DNA of 64,000 nt from Nocardia sp. BMG111209 (GTDB lineage Bacteria; Actinomycetota; Actinomycetes; Mycobacteriales; Mycobacteriaceae): contig NZ_KB907310.1 of NCBI RefSeq assembly GCF_000381925.1, forward strand, positions 62,001-126,000, in the 5' to 3' direction. The notes beneath the pieces are model-generated. The model was given only the letters and a program-made list of their open reading frames with translations. It was not told the origin of the DNA and ran no database searches. The position numbers were made by a program, and so were the translations under genes. Of this stretch, positions 2,172-12,427 are shown one piece after another. The number at the start of each line of letters is the position of its first letter. The first letter of the stretch is position 1.

Positions 2172-3386
2172 TCAGCGGAACAGGTTGCGCACGAACGGAA
2201 CCGAGTCGACCAGGGAGGCGTTGACGGTACCGCTGTGATCGGTCGGATAGGTCCTGGCCGTGACCGGCTGGCCGTTGGCGGTCAGCACGGCGATGAAGCG
2301 CAGGGTCTCCGGGGTCAGCACGTCGGTGTCCTGCAGGCCCTGACCCAGGAACAGCGGCCGGTCGTAACCGGTTTCGGGCAGGCCCAGATAGTCGTGCAGC
2401 AGGTTGTGCGCGTCGGGGAGATCGGCGAGGGGGCGAGCGAGGAGGTCGCCGCCGATCACCTTGCGGTCGTGCAGTTCCTGCTCCAGCGGGAGCAGGCATT
2501 CGTCGTGCGCGCGGTCGACCCAGTACCGGCCGGTGTCCGAGAGGTACGAGTCGATGTTCAGGTTCGGGAAGCTGGTGCGCAGGCCGTTGAGGATGTAGAG
2601 CGCGTAGGCGGTGATCCCGGCGGGCAGCGCCACCGGCGGCACGCCGGGGCCGAGCGCGGTCACCACGTCCTCGATGTAGGCCGGGGTGCCGGTCGCGACC
2701 GCGCCGCGGTAGTCGAGTCCGGGGCCGCCGTACTCGGTGGCGTAGCGCGCCGTGGTCACGGCCGCGCCGGCGCCCTGGGACTGGCCGACGACCACCCAGC
2801 GGTGCGACAGCGTGTCCCATGCACCGGTCGCGGCCTGTACCGCGTCGACCACGTTGTGGGCCTCGACCCGGCCGTTGAGGTACGGATGGTCGCCCCCGGT
2901 GCCGAGCCCGGCGTAGTCGGCGGCCACGATCGCGTAGCCCTGCTTCAGCCAGGCGCCGAGATAGGCCCAGTCCCGGTCCACCGCACCCGGCCCGGCGATG
3001 CTGTAGGCGCATTCGTCGGCCAGGCCGATGGTCCCGTGCGCCCAGGCGATCACCGGCCAGCCGCCGGCCGGGGCCTCGCCGGGCGGGAAGTAGATCGCCG
3101 CGCTCGCCACGGTCGGCGCGTCACCCGCGGTGGTGGTGCGGTAGAGGAAGCGATGCGCGTCGACCGAACCCGGCAGGGTCGCCGCGGCCGACAACGGCAG
3201 GATCTCGGTCAGCGTGCCGGTGTCGGCTGCCGCCGGTGTCCCGGTGGCAGCGGCCGACAGCGCTCCGGTGCCGGCCGCCGAAGCGGTGCCCGGGTCGGCC
3301 ACGGCCGTGGGCGGCAGCGTCGAGACTCCGGTGGCCAGCAGCGCCGCGGCCGCGAGCGCGGTCGCGGCGGTCGACAGTTTCCGCAT
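2172..3386 (-). CDS. Secreted lipase, LIP (secretory triacylglycerol lipase) family
   Basis: This 404-residue protein begins with MRKLSTAATALAAAALL, a Sec signal peptide, and continues with an Ala/Thr/Gly-rich linker to about residue 65. The alpha/beta-hydrolase domain follows, with the nucleophile elbow GQSQG and a C-terminal DHSG segment likely to hold the catalytic histidine. An in-frame start 63 nt further upstream exists, but the ATG at 3386 is preceded by AAGGAG at good spacing and opens directly into the signal peptide. Enzymes of this family hydrolyse triglycerides or other esters outside the cell. No operon partner is visible, because the upstream neighbour is the divergent aceA region. 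Confidence 0.85.
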   Translation of the reverse strand: MRKLSTAATALAAAALLATGVSTLPPTAVADPGTASAAGTGALSAAATGTPAAADTGTLTEILPLSAAATLPGSVDAHRFLYRTTTAGDAPTVASAAIYFPPGEAPAGGWPVIAWAHGTIGLADECAYSIAGPGAVDRDWAYLGAWLKQGYAIVAADYAGLGTGGDHPYLNGRVEAHNVVDAVQAATGAWDTLSHRWVVVGQSQGAGAAVTTARYATEYGGPGLDYRGAVATGTPAYIEDVVTALGPGVPPVALPAGITAYALYILNGLRTSFPNLNIDSYLSDTGRYWVDRAHDECLLPLEQELHDRKVIGGDLLARPLADLPDAHNLLHDYLGLPETGYDRPLFLGQGLQDTDVLTPETLRFIAVLTANGQPVTARTYPTDHSGTVNASLVDSVPFVRNLFR

Positions 3387-3945
3387 CGTTCTCCTTCGTG
3401 CACGGGTTTCCGGCTCAGTATCGCCTGCCGCGCGGCAGAACCGGACCAATCGGTCCCCCGTGCCGCCGGAGGGGCTTGCGCACCGGGTTAGAATTGTGCG
3501 CAGAGCACAATCCAGGGGAGATCAATCGTGGCGTGGCGCACAGTCCGAATGGAACGAACAGCCTGTGAACGTCCTCACATCGCCGATCCGCGACGTCGAA
3601 AAACGGCCACCGCGGACGGTCACGAAAACAGTACGACCGTTACGCAAAACCGCACGTCAGGGCTACCGGCGGGTAGATTTGAGGCGGGCAAGCATTCCGC
3701 AAATTTCACAGAATTGGCAATCGGGCCGTCAAAGCTAGCTCGTATTCACACTTGTAACAGGTAGACGGCCATTTTTTCCTGTGCCATCGTGTGGAAGTAC
3801 AACAGAAGGGCCTAGCAAGCCTGCAAATTGCCGCTCCAGCAGAGTCCGGACCCAGGGCAGCGCCGCCGCGCCGACCGCCCAGCAACCGCATCGTTCGGCG
3901 GTCGTGAGATTCGGACATGGGGCACGACGAGAAGTAGGAGTCACG
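3387..3945. promoter_or_regulatory. 559-bp divergent control region between the lipase gene and aceA
   Basis: No convincing gene lies here: open frames are short and have no ribosome-binding site. The stretch is less GC-rich than its surroundings near 3690-3790, as expected for a promoter. It contains the 19-bp inverted repeat at 3493-3511, listed separately. The 8-mer GCAAATTT at 3699-3706 faintly resembles half of a RamB acetate-regulator site. RamB controls icl1 in mycobacteria, but this match is weak and I do not call it as a site. Confidence 0.5.
3493..3511. promoter_or_regulatory. Candidate operator: ATTGTGC-N5-GCACAAT inverted repeat
   Basis: This perfect 7-bp inverted repeat around a GCAGA spacer lies about 435 bp upstream of aceA and about 107 bp upstream of the divergent lipase start. 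It looks like a dimeric regulator site. It contains TGTG and CACA, but with a 7-bp gap, whereas CRP/GlxR sites have an 8-bp gap. It may serve the lipase promoter rather than aceA. Confidence 0.4.
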
Positions 3946-5232
3946 ATGTCGAACGTCGGCACCCCCAAGACCGCTGCGGAAATCCAGAAGGATTGGGACA
4001 CCAACCCGCGGTGGAAGGGCATCACCCGCAACTACACGCCCGAACAGGTCGTGAAGCTGCAGGGTTCGGTCGTCGAGGAGCACACATTGGCTCGCCGCGG
4101 CGCCGAGATCCTGTGGGAGCAGGTCAACAACGAGGACTACATCAACGCGCTCGGTGCACTCACCGGCAATATGGCCGTGCAGCAGGTGCGCGCCGGCCTG
4201 AAGGCCATCTACCTCTCGGGCTGGCAGGTCGCCGGTGACGCGAACCTGTCCGGTCACACCTACCCGGACCAGTCCCTGTACCCGGCCAACTCGGTGCCCT
4301 CCGTGGTCCGCCGGATCAACAACGCGCTGCTGCGCGCCGACGAGATCGCCCGCGTCGAGGGCGACAACTCGGTCGACAACTGGCTGGTCCCGATCGTGGC
4401 CGACGGTGAGGCCGGTTTCGGTGGCGCGCTGAACGTCTACGAGCTGCAGAAGGCCATGATCGCCGCGGGCGCCGCCGGCACCCACTGGGAGGATCAGCTG
4501 GCCTCGGAGAAGAAGTGCGGCCACCTCGGTGGCAAGGTGCTGATCCCGACCTCGCAGCACATCCGCACCCTGACTTCCGCCCGCCTGGCCGCGGACGTGG
4601 CCGGCACCCCGACCGTGGTGATCGCCCGTACCGACGCCGAGGCGGCGACCCTGATCACCTCCGATGTGGACGAGCGCGACCAGGAGTTCATCTCCGGCGA
4701 GCGTACCGCGGAGGGCTTCTACCACCTGCGCAACGGCATCGAGCCCTGCATCGCCCGCGCCAAGGCCTACGCGCCGTACTCCGACCTGATCTGGATGGAG
4801 ACCGGCACCCCGGACCTGGAGCTGGCCCGCAAGTTCGCCGAGTCGGTCAAGAGCGAGTTCCCCGATCAGCTGCTGTCCTACAACTGCTCGCCGTCGTTCA
4901 ACTGGAAGCAGCACCTGGACGACGCGACCATCGCGAAGTTCCAGCGTGAGCTGGGCGCCATGGGCTTCAAGTTCCAGTTCATCACCCTGGCCGGCTTCCA
5001 CGCGCTGAACTACAGCATGTTCGACCTGGCCTACGGCTACGCCCGCGAGGGCATGTCCGCCTACGTCGAGCTGCAGGAGCGCGAGTTCGCCGCCGAGGAG
5101 CGCGGGTACACCGCCACCAAGCATCAGCGTGAGGTCGGCGCCGGGTACTTCGACACCATCGCCACCACCGTGGATCCGAACACCTCGACCGCGGCGCTGA
5201 AGGGCTCGACCGAAGAAGGCCAGTTCCACTGA
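3946..5232 (+). CDS. aceA: Isocitrate lyase
   Basis: Isocitrate lyase splits isocitrate into glyoxylate and succinate, the first step of the glyoxylate shunt needed for growth on fatty acids and acetate. The 428-residue length matches the short prokaryotic ICL1 class. The active-site signature KKCGHLGGK is present at about residues 186-194, with the conserved YNCSPSFNW segment further on. The ATG at 3946 is preceded by GTAGGAG and gives the family N-terminus [10 protein letters not shown]; a longer in-frame extension upstream lacks family similarity. fadB2 follows after a strong terminator, the same pairing as Rv0467-Rv0468. Confidence 0.97.
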
Positions 5233-5295
5233 GAATGCGGTTGTCCCGTTTCGCATCCGGGATATCCGCGGTCGCCCCTCGCGGGCGGCAGGCTC

Positions 5296-5331
5296 GGGCC
5301 GGGATCCAGCTGCACACCTGGATCCCGGCCC
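5296..5331 (+). terminator. Intrinsic-type hairpin after aceA
   Basis: A perfect 14-bp stem (GGGCCGGGATCCAG paired with CTGGATCCCGGCCC) encloses an 8-nt loop 64 bp after the aceA stop. There is no U tract, as is common in high-GC actinomycetes. It separates aceA from fadB2, so the two genes are probably transcribed separately or attenuated. Confidence 0.75.
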
Positions 5332-5385
5332 TTGCCACTACCACCGAAAACCGCCGCCACCAATGAGAATCACCCAGGAGCGGAC

Positions 5386-6258
5386 ATGAGCGAGAAGATT
5401 CAGCGCGTCGGCATCGTCGGCGCCGGACAGATGGGCGCCGGCATCGCGGAGGTCTGCGCCCGGGCGCACGTGGATGTGCTCGTGTTCGAACCCACCCGGG
5501 AACTGGCCGCCGCGGGCCGGGCCCGGATCCTGCGGTCGCTGGACCGCGGGGTGTCCAGCGGCAAGATCACCGAGCGGGAGCGCGAGCAGACCGCCTGGCG
5601 GCTGCGTTTCACCTCCGATATCGGCGACTTCGCCGACCGCCAGCTGGTGGTCGAGGCGGTCGTGGAGAACGAGGAGGTGAAGACCTCGATCTTCGCCCAG
5701 CTGGACAAGGTGGTGACCGATCCGGACGCGGTGCTCGCGTCCAACACCTCCTCGATCCCGATCATGAAGATCGCGGTGGCCACCGCCAACCCCGAGCGCG
5801 TGGTCGGCATGCACTTCTTCAATCCCGTGCCGGTGCTGCCCCTGGTCGAGCTGGTCACCACGCTGAAGACCAGTGCCGCCGTGTCGGAGCGCGCGGAAGC
5901 GTTCGCCGCCACCGTGCTCGGCAAGCAGGTGGTGCGCTCGGCCGACCGGTCCGGATTCGTGGTGAACGCGCTGCTGGTGCCGTACCTGCTGTCGGCGATC
6001 CGGATGGTCGAATCCGGCTTCGCCACCAAGGAGGACGTCGACAAGGCCATGGTGCTCGGCTGTGCCCATCCGATGGGCCCGCTGGCGCTGACCGATCTGG
6101 TCGGCCTCGACACCGTGAAATCCATCGCCGACTCGATGTATGCCGAGTTCAAGGAACCGCTGTACTCGGCGCCGCCGCTGCTCATGCGCATGGTCGAGGC
6201 GGGACTGCTCGGCAAGAAGGCCGGCGCCGGCTTCTACCAGTACTCGAACAACCGCTAG
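5386..6258 (+). CDS. fadB2: 3-hydroxybutyryl-CoA dehydrogenase
   Basis: This 290-residue enzyme oxidises or reduces 3-hydroxyacyl-CoA with NAD(P), in fatty-acid degradation or butyrate metabolism. The Rossmann motif GIVGAGQMGAGIAEV lies at residues 8-22. The HFFNPVPVLPLVE catalytic segment (His and Asn) sits near residue 143, and the C-terminal helical domain is complete. The ATG at 5386 follows an AGGAG at good spacing; a frame extending 54 nt upstream has no support. Its place directly after aceA matches Rv0468. The MetE-family gene starts 46 bp downstream with its own strong ribosome-binding site. Confidence 0.94.
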   Translation: MSEKIQRVGIVGAGQMGAGIAEVCARAHVDVLVFEPTRELAAAGRARILRSLDRGVSSGKITEREREQTAWRLRFTSDIGDFADRQLVVEAVVENEEVKTSIFAQLDKVVTDPDAVLASNTSSIPIMKIAVATANPERVVGMHFFNPVPVLPLVELVTTLKTSAAVSERAEAFAATVLGKQVVRSADRSGFVVNALLVPYLLSAIRMVESGFATKEDVDKAMVLGCAHPMGPLALTDLVGLDTVKSIADSMYAEFKEPLYSAPPLLMRMVEAGLLGKKAGAGFYQYSNNR

Positions 6259-6304
6259 TCGCTGTATCGGGCTGAAACCCGCTGCCGGAGAAGGAGTTCC
6301 GCTC

Positions 6305-8620
6305 ATGGTCAACGTCGCGGACGGGTTCGGGTCCAGCATCCTCGGTTATCCGAGGATCGGGCCGCACCGGGAACTCAAGCGCGCGCTGGAGGCGTACTGG
6401 CACGGCGAACTGTCGCGGGAGAAGCTGCTGGCGACCGGCCGGGAGATCCAGGACACGCAGTTCGCGGAACTGCACGCGGCCGGGCTCACCCAGGTGCCGG
6501 GCAATACGTTCTCCTTCTACGACCATGTGCTCGACAACGCGCTGTTGTTCGGCGCGGTGCCGAAGCGGTTCGAACCGTACCGTGACGATCTGCATCCGCT
6601 GGACTTCTACTTCCTGATGGCGCGCGGCCGGCCCGATCTGCCGCCGCTGGAACTGGTCCGGCTGTTCGACTCCACGTACCACTACCGGCAGCCGGAGCTG
6701 GACGCCGACACCGAGTTCTCGCTGCATCCCGAGGCGCTGCTCGACGAATTCGATCGGGCCATGGCCCAGGGCATCGAATTGCGGCCGGTGGTACTGGGAC
6801 CGGTGTCGCTGCTGCTGCTGTCGAAGGCGGGCCGGGTGCCCGGCGAGACCGAATTCGACCGGCTGGCGCTGCTGGACCGGCTGCTACCGGTCTACGAACA
6901 GCTGCTGGAGATCCTGGCCAAGCGCGGATCGACCTGTGTGCAGCTGGACGAGCCCTGCTTCACCAGCGACCGCACCCCGGCCGAACTCACGGCGTTCGAG
7001 GCTGCGTACCAACGACTTTCGACTGCGCCGCTACGGCCGCGGATCCTGGTCACCGGTCAGTACGGCGATTTCGGTGAGGCGGTGCGCATCCTGGCCGGAA
7101 CCTCGGTGGAGGCCATCGGTCTCGATCTCGCGGCGCACCGGATCCGGCCGGAGGAGCTGGCCCGGATTCCCGGGATCCGGCGGAAGCGGTTGTACGCGGG
7201 CGTGATCAGCGGCACCAACGTGTGGCGCGCGGATCGCTATGTCACCCTGCAGTATCTGCACGAGCTGTCCCAGGTGTGCCCGGATCTGGTGGTGTCCACC
7301 GGATCCACGCTGTTGCACGTGCCCTACGACCTGCTCGTCGAATACGATATCGACGGCCATGTGGCCGATCGCCTGGCCTTCGCGAAACAAAAAGTGCTGG
7401 AAGTGGTTTCGCTTGCAAAGGCGCTGACCGAGGGCCCGTCGCAGGGCTGGCGGCAGCGGCCGCGCGAGGTGCACTTCAAGCAGAAACACGCTGTGCGGCA
7501 ACGGGTCTACGCGGTCACCCCGCAGATGCGCGAGCGTGAACCGTACGAGCAGCGCCGTCTCGCGCAGCGCGAACGCCTCGACCTGCCGCTGGTGCCCGCC
7601 ACCACGCTCGGCTCCTTCCCGCAGACCGATACGATCCGGCAGGCCCGCTACGAACTGGGCGAAGGCCGGTTGTCGCTGGAGGAGTACCGCAAGCGGATCG
7701 AGGCCGAGATCGAATCGACCATCCGGTTGCAGGAGGACATCGGCCTGGACGTCCTCGTGCACGGCGAGCACGAGCGCAACGACATGGTCCAGTATTTCGC
7801 GGAACTGCTGGACGGCTTCGCCACCACCCACTTCGGCTGGGTGCAGGTGTACGGCTCGCGCTGCGTGCGCCCGCCGATCCTGTTCGGCGATGTGGCCAGG
7901 CCGCAGCCGATGACCGTGGACTGGATCACCTACGCGCAGTCGCTGACCGCCAAACCGGTGAAGGGCATCGTGACCGGCCCGGTGACGATGGTGGCCCGCT
8001 CGTTCGTGCGGCAGGACCAGCCGCTGCACGAGACCGCCGACCAGGTGGCCCTGGCCATCCGCGACGAACTGGCCGATCTGGAACGAGCCGGTGTGGCGAT
8101 CATCCAGGTCGACGAGCCGTCGATCCGGGAACTGCTGCCCCTGCGCACCGGCGGCCGCCACGAATACCTGCGCTGGGCGGTGAACGCCTTCCGCCTCGCC
8201 ACCTCCGGCGTGCGCGCGGACACCCAGATCCACACGCACATCGCCTATTCCGGCCGCGCCGAGATCGTCCGCGCGATCGAGGAACTCGACGCCGACGTCA
8301 CCGCGATCGTCGCCACCCGCTCCATCGAATGGGTGCTGAACGCCTTGAACGACGATGCCGCCGGCGGCCACGGCCTCTCCCACGGCGTGGGACCCGGTGT
8401 GTACGAAAGCCGTTCGGCCCGCATCCCCGACATCGACGAACTCGACGAACTCCTCACCGCCGCCGCCGCGGCCATCACCCCCCACCGCCTCTGGGCCAAC
8501 CCCGACGGCGGCCTGAAAACCCGCCACTACTGGCAACTGGAACCCTCCCTCCGCAACCTGGTCGCCGCCGCCCGCCGCGTCCGCCGCCGCACCGAACAAA
8601 CGAATCCCGCCACGGTCTGA
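6305..8620 (+). CDS. metE: MetE-family (cobalamin-independent methionine synthase) homologue lacking the zinc ligands
   Basis: The 771 residues align along their whole length with cobalamin-independent methionine synthase. The N-terminal ILGYPRIGPHRELK, the LGSFPQT homocysteine-site segment, HGEHERNDMV, YGSRCVRPPI and VDEPSIRE are all intact. Compared with E. coli MetE as I recall it, only the first zinc ligand survives (H645). The positions of Cys643, Glu665 and Cys726 read A647, V669 and G735. The catalytic histidine of the GVYDIHSP segment is R703, and the Trp of the TGPVTILCWSF segment is R565. The protein is therefore unlikely to catalyse the standard methyl transfer, and the symbol reflects homology only. 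The start at 6305 follows GGAGAAGGAG. This gene is not next to fadB2 in M. tuberculosis. Confidence 0.8.
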   Translation: MVNVADGFGSSILGYPRIGPHRELKRALEAYWHGELSREKLLATGREIQDTQFAELHAAGLTQVPGNTFSFYDHVLDNALLFGAVPKRFEPYRDDLHPLDFYFLMARGRPDLPPLELVRLFDSTYHYRQPELDADTEFSLHPEALLDEFDRAMAQGIELRPVVLGPVSLLLLSKAGRVPGETEFDRLALLDRLLPVYEQLLEILAKRGSTCVQLDEPCFTSDRTPAELTAFEAAYQRLSTAPLRPRILVTGQYGDFGEAVRILAGTSVEAIGLDLAAHRIRPEELARIPGIRRKRLYAGVISGTNVWRADRYVTLQYLHELSQVCPDLVVSTGSTLLHVPYDLLVEYDIDGHVADRLAFAKQKVLEVVSLAKALTEGPSQGWRQRPREVHFKQKHAVRQRVYAVTPQMREREPYEQRRLAQRERLDLPLVPATTLGSFPQTDTIRQARYELGEGRLSLEEYRKRIEAEIESTIRLQEDIGLDVLVHGEHERNDMVQYFAELLDGFATTHFGWVQVYGSRCVRPPILFGDVARPQPMTVDWITYAQSLTAKPVKGIVTGPVTMVARSFVRQDQPLHETADQVALAIRDELADLERAGVAIIQVDEPSIRELLPLRTGGRHEYLRWAVNAFRLATSGVRADTQIHTHIAYSGRAEIVRAIEELDADVTAIVATRSIEWVLNALNDDAAGGHGLSHGVGPGVYESRSARIPDIDELDELLTAAAAAITPHRLWANPDGGLKTRHYWQLEPSLRNLVAAARRVRRRTEQTNPATV

Positions 8621-8822
8621 AACCCCGCCCCGGACAAATCGGATTCATGCGGCGGCGCATCGCATTCGAACATTCCGGTCGGTTCGAATGCGATTTCCGG
8701 ATCGACGTGTCATCGGTAATGGGCTGCCTCCCGGCGTTGTGATGTAATCGTCGCGGGGCTGCGTCACAGGTCGGTGTTGTGGCTCCGGCTGTCCGCGCAT
8801 TGCTGATCGCAGGAGGGGTGGC

Positions 8823-9674
8823 ATGACCGACACCGAGGCGCTGTGGGACATGCTGGACGACCGGCTGCTGCCGTTGTTCCGGCAATATCGTCGGAATTTG
8901 TCCGATCTGCGTGTCGACACCAAAGCCGACGACACGCTTCTCTCCGAAGCGGATATCGCGGTGCAAACGGCGATCATCGATACGATTTCGCACCTTTTCC
9001 CGGGTTCCGAGTTCGTCGCCGAGGAAGACGATTGGACGGCGCCGACCAGTGGCGACCCGACCTGGATCGTCGACCCGATCGATGGCACAGCGGAATTCGT
9101 GGTACCCGGGCGGCGCGAGTTCTGCAGCGTCGTGTGCCGGGTCGACCGCGGAATACCTTCTGCCGCATATGTGCTCGCCCCCGAGCTCGGTACCGGAGGA
9201 ACGCCGATCTCGATCCACTGGGCGGAGGGGGTGACCGTCGACGGGCAACCGGCGCCGCCGCTTCCGGCTGCAGACCGGCCGGGCCGGGCATCCGTCACTC
9301 GCAGTGCCGATGTGCCCGCGCGTCGCTTCGAGAGCGAACTCGCGGACATCGGCTGCCGGATGAAGGTGCGCACCACATCCCAGACGCTCGACATGGTGCG
9401 TACCTGCATAGATCTCACCGCCTGGACCGGGGAGTCGCAGGAGCGGTTCGACCTGTTCTACCGAACCGACCAGAAGATCTGGGACGGTGCGGCAGGCATC
9501 GGCCTGAGTCTCGCCATGGGGCGATCGGCCACGGACGGTCGCGGTGCGGCCCTCGTGCCTCTGAGCGAGGAATTCTTGAATCTCCGGGAACCGGTGCTCG
9601 CCGAAACCGTCTCGGGCGCCGAGGGTTGCGTCCGGTGGTTCACCGAGCTACTCGCGGAGTCCCGGAGTATCTGA
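8823..9674 (+). CDS. Inositol monophosphatase/bisphosphate nucleotidase-family phosphatase
   Basis: This 283-residue protein belongs to the Mg-dependent IMPase/CysQ fold. The three metal-binding elements are visible: AEED (about residues 66-69), DPIDGT (84-89) and the late KIWDGAAG (about 217). Family members remove phosphate from inositol phosphate, fructose bisphosphate or 3'-phosphoadenosine nucleotides; the substrate here is not evident. The ATG at 8823 follows AGGAGGGG. The stop shares one base with the start of the next gene (TGATG), so the two proteins are probably made together. Codon use is less biased than in neighbouring metabolic genes, which hints at acquisition. Confidence 0.82.
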   Translation: MTDTEALWDMLDDRLLPLFRQYRRNLSDLRVDTKADDTLLSEADIAVQTAIIDTISHLFPGSEFVAEEDDWTAPTSGDPTWIVDPIDGTAEFVVPGRREFCSVVCRVDRGIPSAAYVLAPELGTGGTPISIHWAEGVTVDGQPAPPLPAADRPGRASVTRSADVPARRFESELADIGCRMKVRTTSQTLDMVRTCIDLTAWTGESQERFDLFYRTDQKIWDGAAGIGLSLAMGRSATDGRGAALVPLSEEFLNLREPVLAETVSGAEGCVRWFTELLAESRSI

Positions 9675-10933
9675 TGCCGCACAGCGTCATGGTGGATGTC
9701 ACGACATTCATCAGTGCAGAAGAATTCCTGTTGTCGCAGAATCGGAGTCGGGGCATTCGGCCGCGCGACCCCTTCTCCGAGCAGTGTTACGCGGAATTGG
9801 TGCAATCCCTCATCTATTTCGACGAGGTTCTCGTTCCGCATCCGACCCTGCTGAATCCGGTACCTGCGGACTACGGTGAGCAGCCCCGTATTCTGCGGCA
9901 CCTCTTCGATCTGTACATCGCCAGGCCACTGGTGATCGGTGACAGCGACAAACCGTTGCTCGCCGAAGCCGAGGCGTCCGCGGTGGAGACGTTGCAGACG
10001 AACGGCGTCCAAACGCTGTTGCAGTTCGTGGATCGCACCCGGCGTGCCGACCTCGAGATACAGCAGTACGGCGGCGGTCAGCGGCTGCTGCCCAAGATCG
10101 TGAAATGGTCCGACTACCAAGCCGGAAACATTCGGAGCCGGACTCACCACGGTGCGCGGATCAGCGGTCCCGACGGAGTCGAAGACGATCTCTTCGGGAA
10201 ATGGGCACGAGCTTCGTCCTTCGCACTCGAGGGCCGGTTGCGGAGTCTCATACCGGACAGCGAGCAACAGTTGTGGTTCATCGCGACCCTGGTGCGGTCG
10301 CTGCGCTACTCGGCGCGGGCCAAGGTGAAAAATGTGGCGTACACGCCGCATCCGCTGCGCCGGGACTTCTCGGTGATGTTCGACCTGTTCGATGACGGCG
10401 CTCCGGAGAACACCATCGAGGACGTCATCTCGGCGATACGCGGCATCCCGGGTGAGATAAACCGGGTGGCCGACGCACGTCCGGATCGTCCGCTGCAACT
10501 TCGTGTCCAGGAGTTGCCGCTCCTGGGCGGCAGATTGTGGAGCCAGGCGGAGCGCGAACGATACGACGACGAACGTTGGCTGCAGTTGATATGTGGCCGG
10601 ATCGATGAATACCGTTCTCGCGCAGCAGATTTCCGGAGCGTGCTGTCGATGGCCGACTCCGAGGAGGATATCCGCCGGCTCGAGATCGACGTTCTCGGTG
10701 TGCGCAACCAACTGCTGCGGAAGCTGGGTCTCGAGTCTGCGCAGGTGAACGAGACCGAGACGGCGTTGCTGGATACGACCGCTTCGATCGCCAAGGCCGG
10801 ATTCGGGATGCCCACCGAGGTGCCGGTGACGCAATTGCTGAAGCTCGCGTACGTTGCGCTGCGGCGATACAAGGGGTCGTTGGGCACCCCGCATCAAAAA
10901 TTCCTGTATCGCGAATTCGTTCGCGGCGTGTAG
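9674..10933 (+). CDS. Protein of unknown function coupled to the IMPase-like gene
   Basis: I do not recognise this 419-residue protein. It starts at the ATG that overlaps the upstream stop codon (TGATG), giving MPHSVMVDVTTFISAEE; the same frame stays open further upstream only inside the IMPase gene. The protein is soluble, with no signal peptide or membrane segment. It is rich in charged residues and probably largely alpha-helical, with many Leu/Arg/Glu stretches in the last 200 residues. The N-terminal VDVTTFI strand is weakly like the start of a PIN-like nuclease, but the later acidic residues of such a site are not obvious. The tight pairing suggests that the two gene products act in one process. 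Confidence 0.7.
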   Translation: MPHSVMVDVTTFISAEEFLLSQNRSRGIRPRDPFSEQCYAELVQSLIYFDEVLVPHPTLLNPVPADYGEQPRILRHLFDLYIARPLVIGDSDKPLLAEAEASAVETLQTNGVQTLLQFVDRTRRADLEIQQYGGGQRLLPKIVKWSDYQAGNIRSRTHHGARISGPDGVEDDLFGKWARASSFALEGRLRSLIPDSEQQLWFIATLVRSLRYSARAKVKNVAYTPHPLRRDFSVMFDLFDDGAPENTIEDVISAIRGIPGEINRVADARPDRPLQLRVQELPLLGGRLWSQAERERYDDERWLQLICGRIDEYRSRAADFRSVLSMADSEEDIRRLEIDVLGVRNQLLRKLGLESAQVNETETALLDTTASIAKAGFGMPTEVPVTQLLKLAYVALRRYKGSLGTPHQKFLYREFVRGV

Positions 10934-11026: not shown

Positions 11027-12427
11027 TTGAACGGGATGGGGCAGGGGTTGACCGCGGGGGGTCGGGAGCGGTGGCGGCGGCGGGCCGAGGGGGTCGTGGG
11101 GGAGTTGCGGGAGCGGGGGGTGGTGGCGGTGGCGGTGACGTGGGTCGATACCGGGGGGATCGTTCGGGTGAAAACTGTTCCGGTGCAGCGGTTTCCGCAT
11201 GTGGCGGCGTGGGGGATCGGGGCCTCGCCGGTGTTCGATGTATTTCTGGCCGATGACAGCATCGTGGCGGGGCGGTATGCGGGTGGGCCGGTGGGGGATC
11301 TGCGGTTGCATCCGGATCCGGATCGGGTGGTGACGTTGGCGGCGATGCCGGGGTGGGCGTGGGCGCCGGCGGATCGGTACGACCAGGACGGGGGTGCGCA
11401 TCCGCACGATGCGCGGTTGTTGTTGCGGCGGCTGGTGGCGGAGCTGGCGGAGGAGGGGTGGTCGGTGCGGGCGGGGTTCGAGGTGGAGTGGGTGCTGGGG
11501 CGGCCTGCCGCCGACGATCGGTTCGTGCCGGTGACGACCGCGCCGGCGTACGGGATGGCTCGGGTGGTGGGGCTGGCGGATTATCTGCGGGATGTGATGG
11601 CCGCGCTGGGGGACAGTGGGGTATCCGTGGATCAGGTGCATCCGGAGTATTCGGCGGGGCAGTTCGAATTGTCCTTTGCCGCAACGGATCCGGTGGAGGC
11701 CGCGGATACCCTGGTGGTGGCGCGGGAGACGGTGCGGGCGGTGAGTGCGGCGTACGATATGCGGGTTTCGTTCGCGCCCAAGGTGGTTCACGATGCGGTC
11801 GGGAACGGTGGGCATGTGCACCTGAGTCTGTGGCGAGGTGGGATCAATGCCATGTCGGGGGGTGCGGGGCCGTTCGGGCTGACCGAGGCGGGGGAGTGCT
11901 TCACCGGTGGTGTGCTCGGGCATCTGCCTGCGCTCATGGCGGTCGGATGTTCTTCTGTCGCAAGTTATCTGCGGTTGGAGCCGTCGCACTGGGCCGGGAT
12001 GTTCGCGTGCTGGGGGCGGGAGAATCGGGAGGCGGCGGTGCGGTATGTCGGTGGGTGCCCGGGTGAGCGGGAGCGGGCGGCGAATGTCGAGGTCAAATGC
12101 TTCGATGCCACGGCCAATCCGTATCTGATGCTGGCCGGAGTGCTCGCCGCCGGTGCGGCGGGGCTGCGGGATGCGGTGCGGTTGCCCGCGCCGGTCGACA
12201 TCGATCCCGGCGCGCTGACCCCGGCGCAGCGCGCCGCCGCCGGGATCGACGCGCTGCCGGGCACTCTCGCCGAGGCCGTTGCCGCCTTCGAGGCGGATGC
12301 CGTGCTGGGCAAGGCCTTCGGGGCGGGGCTCGTCGACACCATCGCCACGGTGCGCCGCGGTGAGATCGCCGCCCTCGCGGGCCTCGGTCCGGCGGAGATC
12401 ATCGCTCGCACCCGGTGGCGATATTGA
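11027..12427 (+). CDS. Glutamine synthetase-family protein (gamma-glutamyl ligase-like)
   Basis: This 466-residue member of the glutamine synthetase superfamily has the family blocks. They are an FEVEW metal-binding strand (about residue 150), VHPEYSAGQFELS (about 205), NGGHVHLSLW (about 264), and RLEPSHWAGMFACWGRENR (about 321). Its size and divergent motifs fit the GlnA3/PuuA-like ligases that gamma-glutamylate amines rather than housekeeping GlnA. The TTG at 11027 is chosen because GGAGG lies 7 nt upstream; an ATG at 11036 is the alternative. The first three quarters of the gene are extremely G-rich in third codon positions, then C-ending codons take over near 12100. Confidence 0.82.
   Translation: MNGMGQGLTAGGRERWRRRAEGVVGELRERGVVAVAVTWVDTGGIVRVKTVPVQRFPHVAAWGIGASPVFDVFLADDSIVAGRYAGGPVGDLRLHPDPDRVVTLAAMPGWAWAPADRYDQDGGAHPHDARLLLRRLVAELAEEGWSVRAGFEVEWVLGRPAADDRFVPVTTAPAYGMARVVGLADYLRDVMAALGDSGVSVDQVHPEYSAGQFELSFAATDPVEAADTLVVARETVRAVSAAYDMRVSFAPKVVHDAVGNGGHVHLSLWRGGINAMSGGAGPFGLTEAGECFTGGVLGHLPALMAVGCSSVASYLRLEPSHWAGMFACWGRENREAAVRYVGGCPGERERAANVEVKCFDATANPYLMLAGVLAAGAAGLRDAVRLPAPVDIDPGALTPAQRAAAGIDALPGTLAEAVAAFEADAVLGKAFGAGLVDTIATVRRGEIAALAGLGPAEIIARTRWRY

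Follow-up and report, generated by a model that had tools for sequence, protein, structure and literature searches.

In Nocardia sp. BMG111209, the gene that we call metE', the third of an icl-fadB2-metE' triplet, probably encodes a neofunctionalised, zinc-free paralogue of the cobalamin-independent methionine synthase MetE that does not make methionine, serves an operon of FadB2 and the glyoxylate shunt, and is misannotated; this reading is drawn from sequence comparisons. The gene lies in a window of 64,000 nucleotides (contig NZ_KB907310.1, positions 62,001 to 126,000 of the forward strand), the whole stretch of DNA that was analysed. The parts needed for MetE chemistry are gone, yet relatives keep the gene behind icl and fadB2, and metE' therefore very probably does a job other than methionine synthesis. 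The features concerned, in window coordinates, are as follows.

3946..5232, + strand: icl (aceA), isocitrate lyase, the first gene of the triplet (PF00463; NF011645 at 781 bits, cut-off 562)
5386..6258, + strand: fadB2, 3-hydroxybutyryl-CoA dehydrogenase (PF02737 and PF00725; NF005875 at 525.9 bits, cut-off 319)
6287..6296, + strand: ribosome-binding-site-like GGAGAAGGAG before the metE' ATG, read from the sequence
6305..8620, + strand: metE', zinc-less MetE paralogue, 46 nt downstream of fadB2
7997..7999, + strand: codon 565, pterin-stacking Trp replaced by Arg (alignment, with roles from the accessible part of PMC539065)
8237..8245, + strand: codons 645-647, zinc His kept (645) and zinc Cys replaced by Ala (647) (structure and family alignments)
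8309..8311, + strand: codon 669, zinc Glu replaced by Val (structure and family alignments)
8405..8416, + strand: codons 701-704, D-I-H-S of DIHSP replaced by E-S-R-S (alignment, with roles from the accessible part of PMC539065)
8507..8509, + strand: codon 735, zinc Cys replaced by Gly (structure and family alignments)

The metE' gene and its active-site residues

The initial annotation described an intact gene without a frameshift whose product aligns with MetE from end to end, and both descriptions hold. The reading frame runs from ATG to TGA over 771 amino acids with no internal stops, and solved MetE structures match the protein over its full length, which holds two (beta/alpha)8 barrels; the best is 1u1h (E 2.1e-186, query residues 10-762). 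GC3 is 0.880 in metE', 0.897 in the genome's canonical metE and 0.93 in the two genes upstream. Pfam recognises two MetE domains only (the N-terminal PF08267 at 343.5 bits) and no signalling domain. The protein passes the methionine synthase model NF003556 (931.5 bits, cut-off 541) but fails the equivalog TIGR01371 (860.8 bits, cut-off 929.95), as do two other metE' members (881.7 and 870.5), whereas two canonical copies pass it with 1041 and 991.2; this combination probably explains why the methionine synthase name is carried across the family. Among the best 120 matches in each listing, every metE' match is named 5-methyltetrahydropteroyltriglutamate-homocysteine methyltransferase in its source, so that genome-based predictions of whether Nocardia, Rhodococcus, Gordonia and related bacteria need methionine or B12 count a gene that is very probably unable to do the step.

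Residue roles were transferred from T. maritima MetE as described in the accessible part of PMC539065. The zinc ligands His618, Cys620, Glu642 and Cys704 correspond here to H645, A647, V669 and G735; the homocysteine residues Asp577, Glu462, Ser411 and Met468 to D603, E488, S437 and M494; the pterin contacts Glu583, Trp539 and Lys104 to E609, R565 and R119; the glutamate-tail residues Arg15, Lys18, Arg493 and Arg496 to R22, K25, R519 and R522; and His672 to R703. The equivalence of Lys104 and His111 with positions 119 and 126 is our own reading of the KWFDTNYH segment. Alignment confirms all five replacements that had been listed from the sequence (A647, V669, G735, R565 and R703), and the one zinc ligand retained is H645, the second His of HTH.

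These replacements are not peculiar to one genome. In a Nocardia-clade set of 232 rows (120 database proteins and 112 loci, duplicates included), Cys647, Glu669 and Cys735 occur in none, and R565, R703 and G735 occur in every one, while the 28 canonical MetE rows compared with them all retain the Cys, Glu, Cys, Trp and His; neither chance nor sequencing error accounts for replacements shared so widely. Our main set comprises 31 metE' rows (30 of them different, drawn from 23 genera with three database proteins added) and 33 canonical rows, and the three lost ligands are absent from all of the former and present in all of the latter, leaving His645 alone of the zinc site. The metE' residue sets (232, 60, 55 and 31 rows, and 30 more loci) overlap, and the picture is the same in each.

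The residues that were kept form two groups. H645, D603, E488, S437, M494, D493, R519 and R522 are present in 31 of the 31 rows, so that the Ser, Glu and Asp that bind homocysteine, together with the Met, are complete throughout; the same pattern is repeated in 60 database proteins and in 30 further loci (with one start-cut row lacking S437). In the glutamate-tail groove, R22 is found in 27/27 and K25 in 26/27 rows (four rows being start-cut), along with R519 and R522 in all 31. The pterin contacts fared differently: there is no Trp at position 565 in any of the 31 rows (R in 23, L in 3, F in 3, G in 2), and position 609, a Glu in the window gene, is E in 24, T in 6 and Q in 1, the equivalent of pterin Glu583 being missing also from 12 of the 60 database rows. 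Position 119, an Arg in the window gene, is K in 16, R in 13 and another residue in 2; position 126 is H in 17, Y in 11, F in 2 and L in 1; and position 703 is R in 27, H in 2 and K in 2, with His seen at this position in three Hoyosella-group rows among the 60 database proteins. Because R565, E609, R119, H126 and R703 differ between genera, the rebuilt site does not amount to a single, fixed set of catalytic residues. W676, C211, M562, Q744 and E701 are new constants, present in all 31 metE' rows, M562 being found also in one of the 33 canonical rows.

On these alignments, selection has retained the basic groove and the pocket for the amino acid and has dropped the zinc and the methyl-folate chemistry, although the retained amino-acid residues might be conserved for structure. 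With the gene under selection and the catalytic residues of its parent gone, metE' fits the description of a pseudoenzyme in these respects, though it may still catalyse a reaction.

Distribution and the icl-fadB2 neighbourhood

A metE' match is present in 148 of 148 sampled Nocardia genomes, one of which (G015) contains only part of the gene, and metE' occurs in 23 of the 31 genera sampled from the GTDB family, with the three zinc ligands missing in all aligned rows. The family protein search covered 49 hand-picked genomes from 30 genera other than Nocardia, and full-length metE' (61-80% identity) was found in 30 of these genomes, in 22 genera; a clade confined to Nocardia, which we had considered, is thus rejected by the family-wide searches. 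Named members are found in Rhodococcus, Rhodococcoides, Skermania, Antrihabitans, Aldersonia, Hoyosella, Lolliginicoccus, Speluncibacter, Tomitella, Williamsia and Gordonia. YESRSARIP, sought as a DNA pattern that is blind to variants such as ETHSARIP, matches 118 of 301 family genomes in 13 of 31 genera; a slightly wider pattern matches four of 394 genomes of the class, all of them Nocardia, and no match to the changed DIHSP segment was found in the 358 class genomes outside the family (36 of the 394 belong to it). Among 200 genomes of the order, which include few genera of the family, there is no full-length match above 56% identity outside Nocardia, and short fragments there reach 64%.

The expectation that zinc-less members form a clade of their own is borne out by a quick tree, in which all 31 metE' members fall on one side of a single branch (SH-aLRT 100) with a long stem (0.49). 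As to a horizontal source, the nearest canonical row, in this tree for which no root was inferred, is that of locus L118 (family code f14), and neither icl nor fadB2 was seen in its neighbourhood (L248).

The gene had been described as selected and not decaying, and substitution rates agree with this: the median dN/dS of metE' is 0.150 (maximum 0.248; 210 pairs from 21 Nocardia loci), the icl and fadB2 medians at the same loci being 0.178 and 0.087, and between genomes the protein is conserved to the same degree as canonical MetE (72.1% and 69.1% identity respectively between G000 and G414, 72.2% and 69.6% between G000 and G442). Sequencing error or decay is ruled out by the 148 matching Nocardia genomes together with this dN/dS.

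The order icl, fadB2, metE' on one strand is found in 63 of 63 loci, namely 15/15 in one set and 48/48 in another that consists of 40 loci chosen from DNA-pattern matches (the window included) and eight Nocardia loci. The gaps in the window are 153 nt between icl and fadB2 and 46 nt between fadB2 and metE', and metE' is presumably co-transcribed with its two neighbours; at one locus (L160) an extra ORF is called between icl and fadB2. The solved structure nearest to FadB2 by sequence is 6hrd. Among the 48 loci, 35 contain an alcohol dehydrogenase gene, and 29 have somewhere a regulator that we take to be RamB-like. This fixed neighbourhood, which the initial annotation had not used, points to acetate or fatty-acid metabolism and suggests that metE' is an unrecognised component of growth on such substrates. 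The icl-fadB2 pair is itself broader, since 16 of 18 family genomes without a full-length metE' have a FadB2 match and icl adjoins it in 13 of the 16, so that metE' is probably an addition that is sometimes lost. In a group coded g2, presumably mycobacteria, icl likewise adjoins fadB2 (L262, L263), but a different ORF follows and metE' is in neither of the two g2 genomes searched. No Rfam family matches at gathering level in window positions 2900-9000, so no riboswitch was found at metE', and control by B12 of the kind known for canonical metE is rejected on the same grounds. A scan for promoters and terminators gave nothing above chance.

Some loci of genus g3 show what may follow fadB2 otherwise. 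At L251 (genome G305) it is followed by a 91-residue ORF and by the alcohol dehydrogenase gene that is common after metE' elsewhere, as if metE' had dropped out from between them. At L252 and L255-L258, also without metE', a different ORF follows fadB2, its product starting MRTFGRFADLTAAAFGYLARD in three of them; we assume that it is perhaps related to YrbE/Mce.

FadB2 in genomes with and without metE'

Genus g3, with eight genomes that have metE' and 21 that do not, allows the partners to be compared in both backgrounds; icl and fadB2 share one locus in all 29 genomes, and metH is present in all 29. Mean identity of FadB2 to the Nocardia protein is 86.6% with metE' and 80.8% without it, and to the g84 protein 88.6% and 79.9%, whereas the controls show no difference (ICL 86.4/86.4 and 93.4/93.5, MetH 81.8/81.7). 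Root-to-tip distances agree, with FadB2 at 0.099 (0.069-0.117) in the presence of metE' and 0.222 (0.100-0.302) in its absence, as against 0.163 and 0.150 for MetH and 0.088 and 0.068 for ICL; FadB2 has thus evolved about twice as fast where metE' is missing, which is not so for MetH or ICL. The median dN/dS of FadB2 is 0.034 with metE' (28 pairs) and 0.120 without (209 pairs, the pairs not being independent), and that of ICL also rises, from 0.042 (24 pairs) to 0.075 (209 pairs).

The shift follows metE' and not canonical metE, since in g3 genomes without metE' the mean root-to-tip distance of FadB2 is 0.240 where metE is present (n=7) and 0.213 where it is not (n=14). In two of the 21 genomes without metE' (G563 and G583) FadB2 is as slow as in those that have it, which a recent loss of metE' would explain. 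It counts against a link with metE' that its independent losses are few (the g3 genomes without it form a few groups, the fewest changes on the MetH tree being two), that genus g68 shows a small FadB2 difference, that the dN/dS of ICL rises to some extent, and that canonical metE is more frequent, too, among the g3 genomes that have metE'. There are 12 FadB2 positions conserved in g3 genomes with metE' and variable in those without; S122, H143, E155 and N194, which we take to be the active-site residues of the family, are conserved in both. We infer a function common to FadB2 and metE' or a contact between them, although the shift could also reflect a shared pathway that has been given up. We note also that ICL identity to the g84 copy is uneven among g3 and g85 loci, being 97% at L251 and L259 and about 93% at many others, a hint that genera have exchanged icl with one another.

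Possible functions of metE'

The mechanism that we propose is read from the residues that are kept and lost. The protein retains the MetE double barrel with the amino/carboxylate pocket for homocysteine (D603, E488, S437, M494) and the basic groove for the folate glutamate tail (R22, K25, R519, R522); the thiol-activating zinc ligands are gone, as are the Trp and His that handle methyl-folate. With pocket and groove kept and these parts lost, metE' would most likely bind an alpha-amino acid and an anionic second ligand at the cleft, at a zinc-free site. In the acetate/fatty-acid (glyoxylate-shunt) operon it would work together with FadB2, whether as an enzyme that converts a related metabolite without zinc or as a partner of FadB2 that responds to a ligand. 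From sequence evidence, then, we infer that metE' no longer binds zinc or makes methionine, that it binds an amino acid and that it is coupled to FadB2; it is likely to be a MetE shell that still binds an amino acid but has no engine for methyl transfer. We lean towards a FadB2-coupled function, with an enzyme and a non-catalytic partner about equal. The initial annotation had offered both a new reaction and a ligand-binding protein, and both are still viable.

The non-catalytic half of this explanation, in which metE' would sense folate or a homocysteine- or methionine-like amino acid and tune FadB2 or the glyoxylate shunt accordingly, is a tentative but quite real possibility. The rate shift of FadB2 where metE' is missing is consistent with it, as is the fact that, among the old functional residues, those for the amino acid and the glutamate tail are the most constant and those for the pterin and proton donation the least; against this, Pfam shows the two MetE domains alone with no signalling domain, and the new constants W676, E701 and Q744 could equally be catalytic. 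Taken as an enzyme, metE' would be a new zinc-free member of the MetE fold, with an alpha-amino acid in the former homocysteine pocket and an anionic partner in the arginine-rich cleft. The partner might be glyoxylate produced by isocitrate lyase or an acyl-CoA that FadB2 makes or consumes, and the protein would then form an undescribed link from the glyoxylate shunt or C4-CoA metabolism to amino-acid or one-carbon metabolism in mycolic-acid bacteria; in this specific form the idea is possible but on the unlikely side.

The other methionine synthases of these genomes bear on two further explanations. A search for canonical metE or metH in the same genome, as had been advised, found both, and a cobalamin riboswitch stands at the canonical metE (L002) and at an N-terminal metE fragment (L003). 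This fragment is a third copy (L003 1160-2652; G000:C1, about 345,600-347,100) that matches residues 2-378 only, at 43%, and is preceded by a cobalamin riboswitch match of 74 bits; it looks like a truncated relic that has retained its riboswitch. Among the 30 metE' genomes outside Nocardia, canonical metE is missing in 12, a metH match is present in 29, and none lacks both. In Nocardia, 13 of 148 genomes have a single MetE match and no canonical metE, and all 13 have metH; three of these (G032, G055, G123) are incomplete or fragmented drafts, and as at most seven candidates were scored in each genome, a canonical copy may have been missed in single cases. In two genomes metH appears as two adjoining pieces (G043:C1:6008278-6011804 and G347:C1:1747257-1750774, both pieces of the latter below cut-off), which are either split genes or frameshifts.

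It is unlikely that metE' serves canonical MetE as an inactive subunit or as its regulator. Within g3, canonical metE accompanies metE' in 8/8 genomes and occurs in 7/21 of those without it (Fisher p 0.002, not corrected for kinship), as such a partnership would have it; however, the 12 of 30 and 13 of 148 genomes above that have metE' and no canonical metE argue that the one does not depend on the other, and metE' sits with icl-fadB2 where no riboswitch was found, unlike the canonical copy. The earlier suggestion of an inactive partner of a true MetE thus falls as an obligate role, ruled out by metE' genomes without metE and by metE genomes without metE'. It is about as doubtful that metE' is still a methionine synthase, whether with a different metal site or by a mechanism that does without zinc (H645 with E701 or other residues, for instance). 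The fold, the homocysteine residues and the folate-tail groove are all there, and NF003556 gives it that name (931.5 bits, cut-off 541), but three of the four zinc ligands, the pterin Trp and the DIHSP His are missing, as is the pterin Glu583 equivalent in 12/60 rows; the score is below the TIGR01371 cut-off (860.8 against 929.95, the canonical copy reaching 1041), and metE' is the sole methionine synthase in none of the 30 genomes and in none of the 13 Nocardia genomes that have one MetE match. That metE' is a relic under relaxed selection is hardly credible, for although it is missing from 21 of 29 g3 genomes and from 8 of 31 sampled family genera, its dN/dS is low (median 0.150, maximum 0.248), all 148 Nocardia genomes match, and it is conserved like canonical MetE between the same genomes (72.1% and 69.1%).

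Compared with known systems, the FadB2-coupled paralogue that we favour is closest to cobalamin-independent MetE (EC 2.1.1.14; TIGR01371), with which it has in common the full-length two-barrel fold, the homocysteine residues and the glutamate-tail groove; it differs in the replaced zinc Cys/Glu/Cys, pterin Trp and DIHSP His, in its score below the TIGR01371 cut-off, in its neighbourhood and in that no riboswitch was found. The core methionine synthases MesA-MesD share the C-terminal barrel, but according to the accessible part of the account by Price et al. (2021, PMC7857596) they are without folate-binding domains, whereas metE' has the N-terminal domain PF08267; the MesB-like proteins of Chloroflexales and the MesC of MSBL-1 described there also are without zinc ligands, in other lineages and with other residues than here. 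Uroporphyrinogen decarboxylase, with one barrel, 12-16% identity and other chemistry, is a precedent and not a relative in membership: it is a metal-free enzyme that, as suggested in the accessible part of PMC539065, may descend from a MetE-like barrel. The metE' clade offers a natural experiment on the MetE double barrel after loss of its metal. As far as its text was accessible, we found no report in the open-licence PubMed Central literature of a zinc-less full-length MetE clade of these bacteria or of the icl-fadB2-metE' triplet; the accessible part of an account of N. cyriacigeorgica region RGP-Cy15 (PMC3751702) places metE and isocitrate lyase there as ordinary genes.

Further downstream in the window, a 414-residue protein with no Pfam match is encoded at 9689-10933 (+ strand), with an inositol-monophosphatase-like gene on one side and a glutamine-synthetase-like gene on the other. 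The latter (11036-12427, + strand; PF00120, with the N-terminal domain match below cut-off) encodes what is maybe a gamma-glutamyl-amide synthetase.
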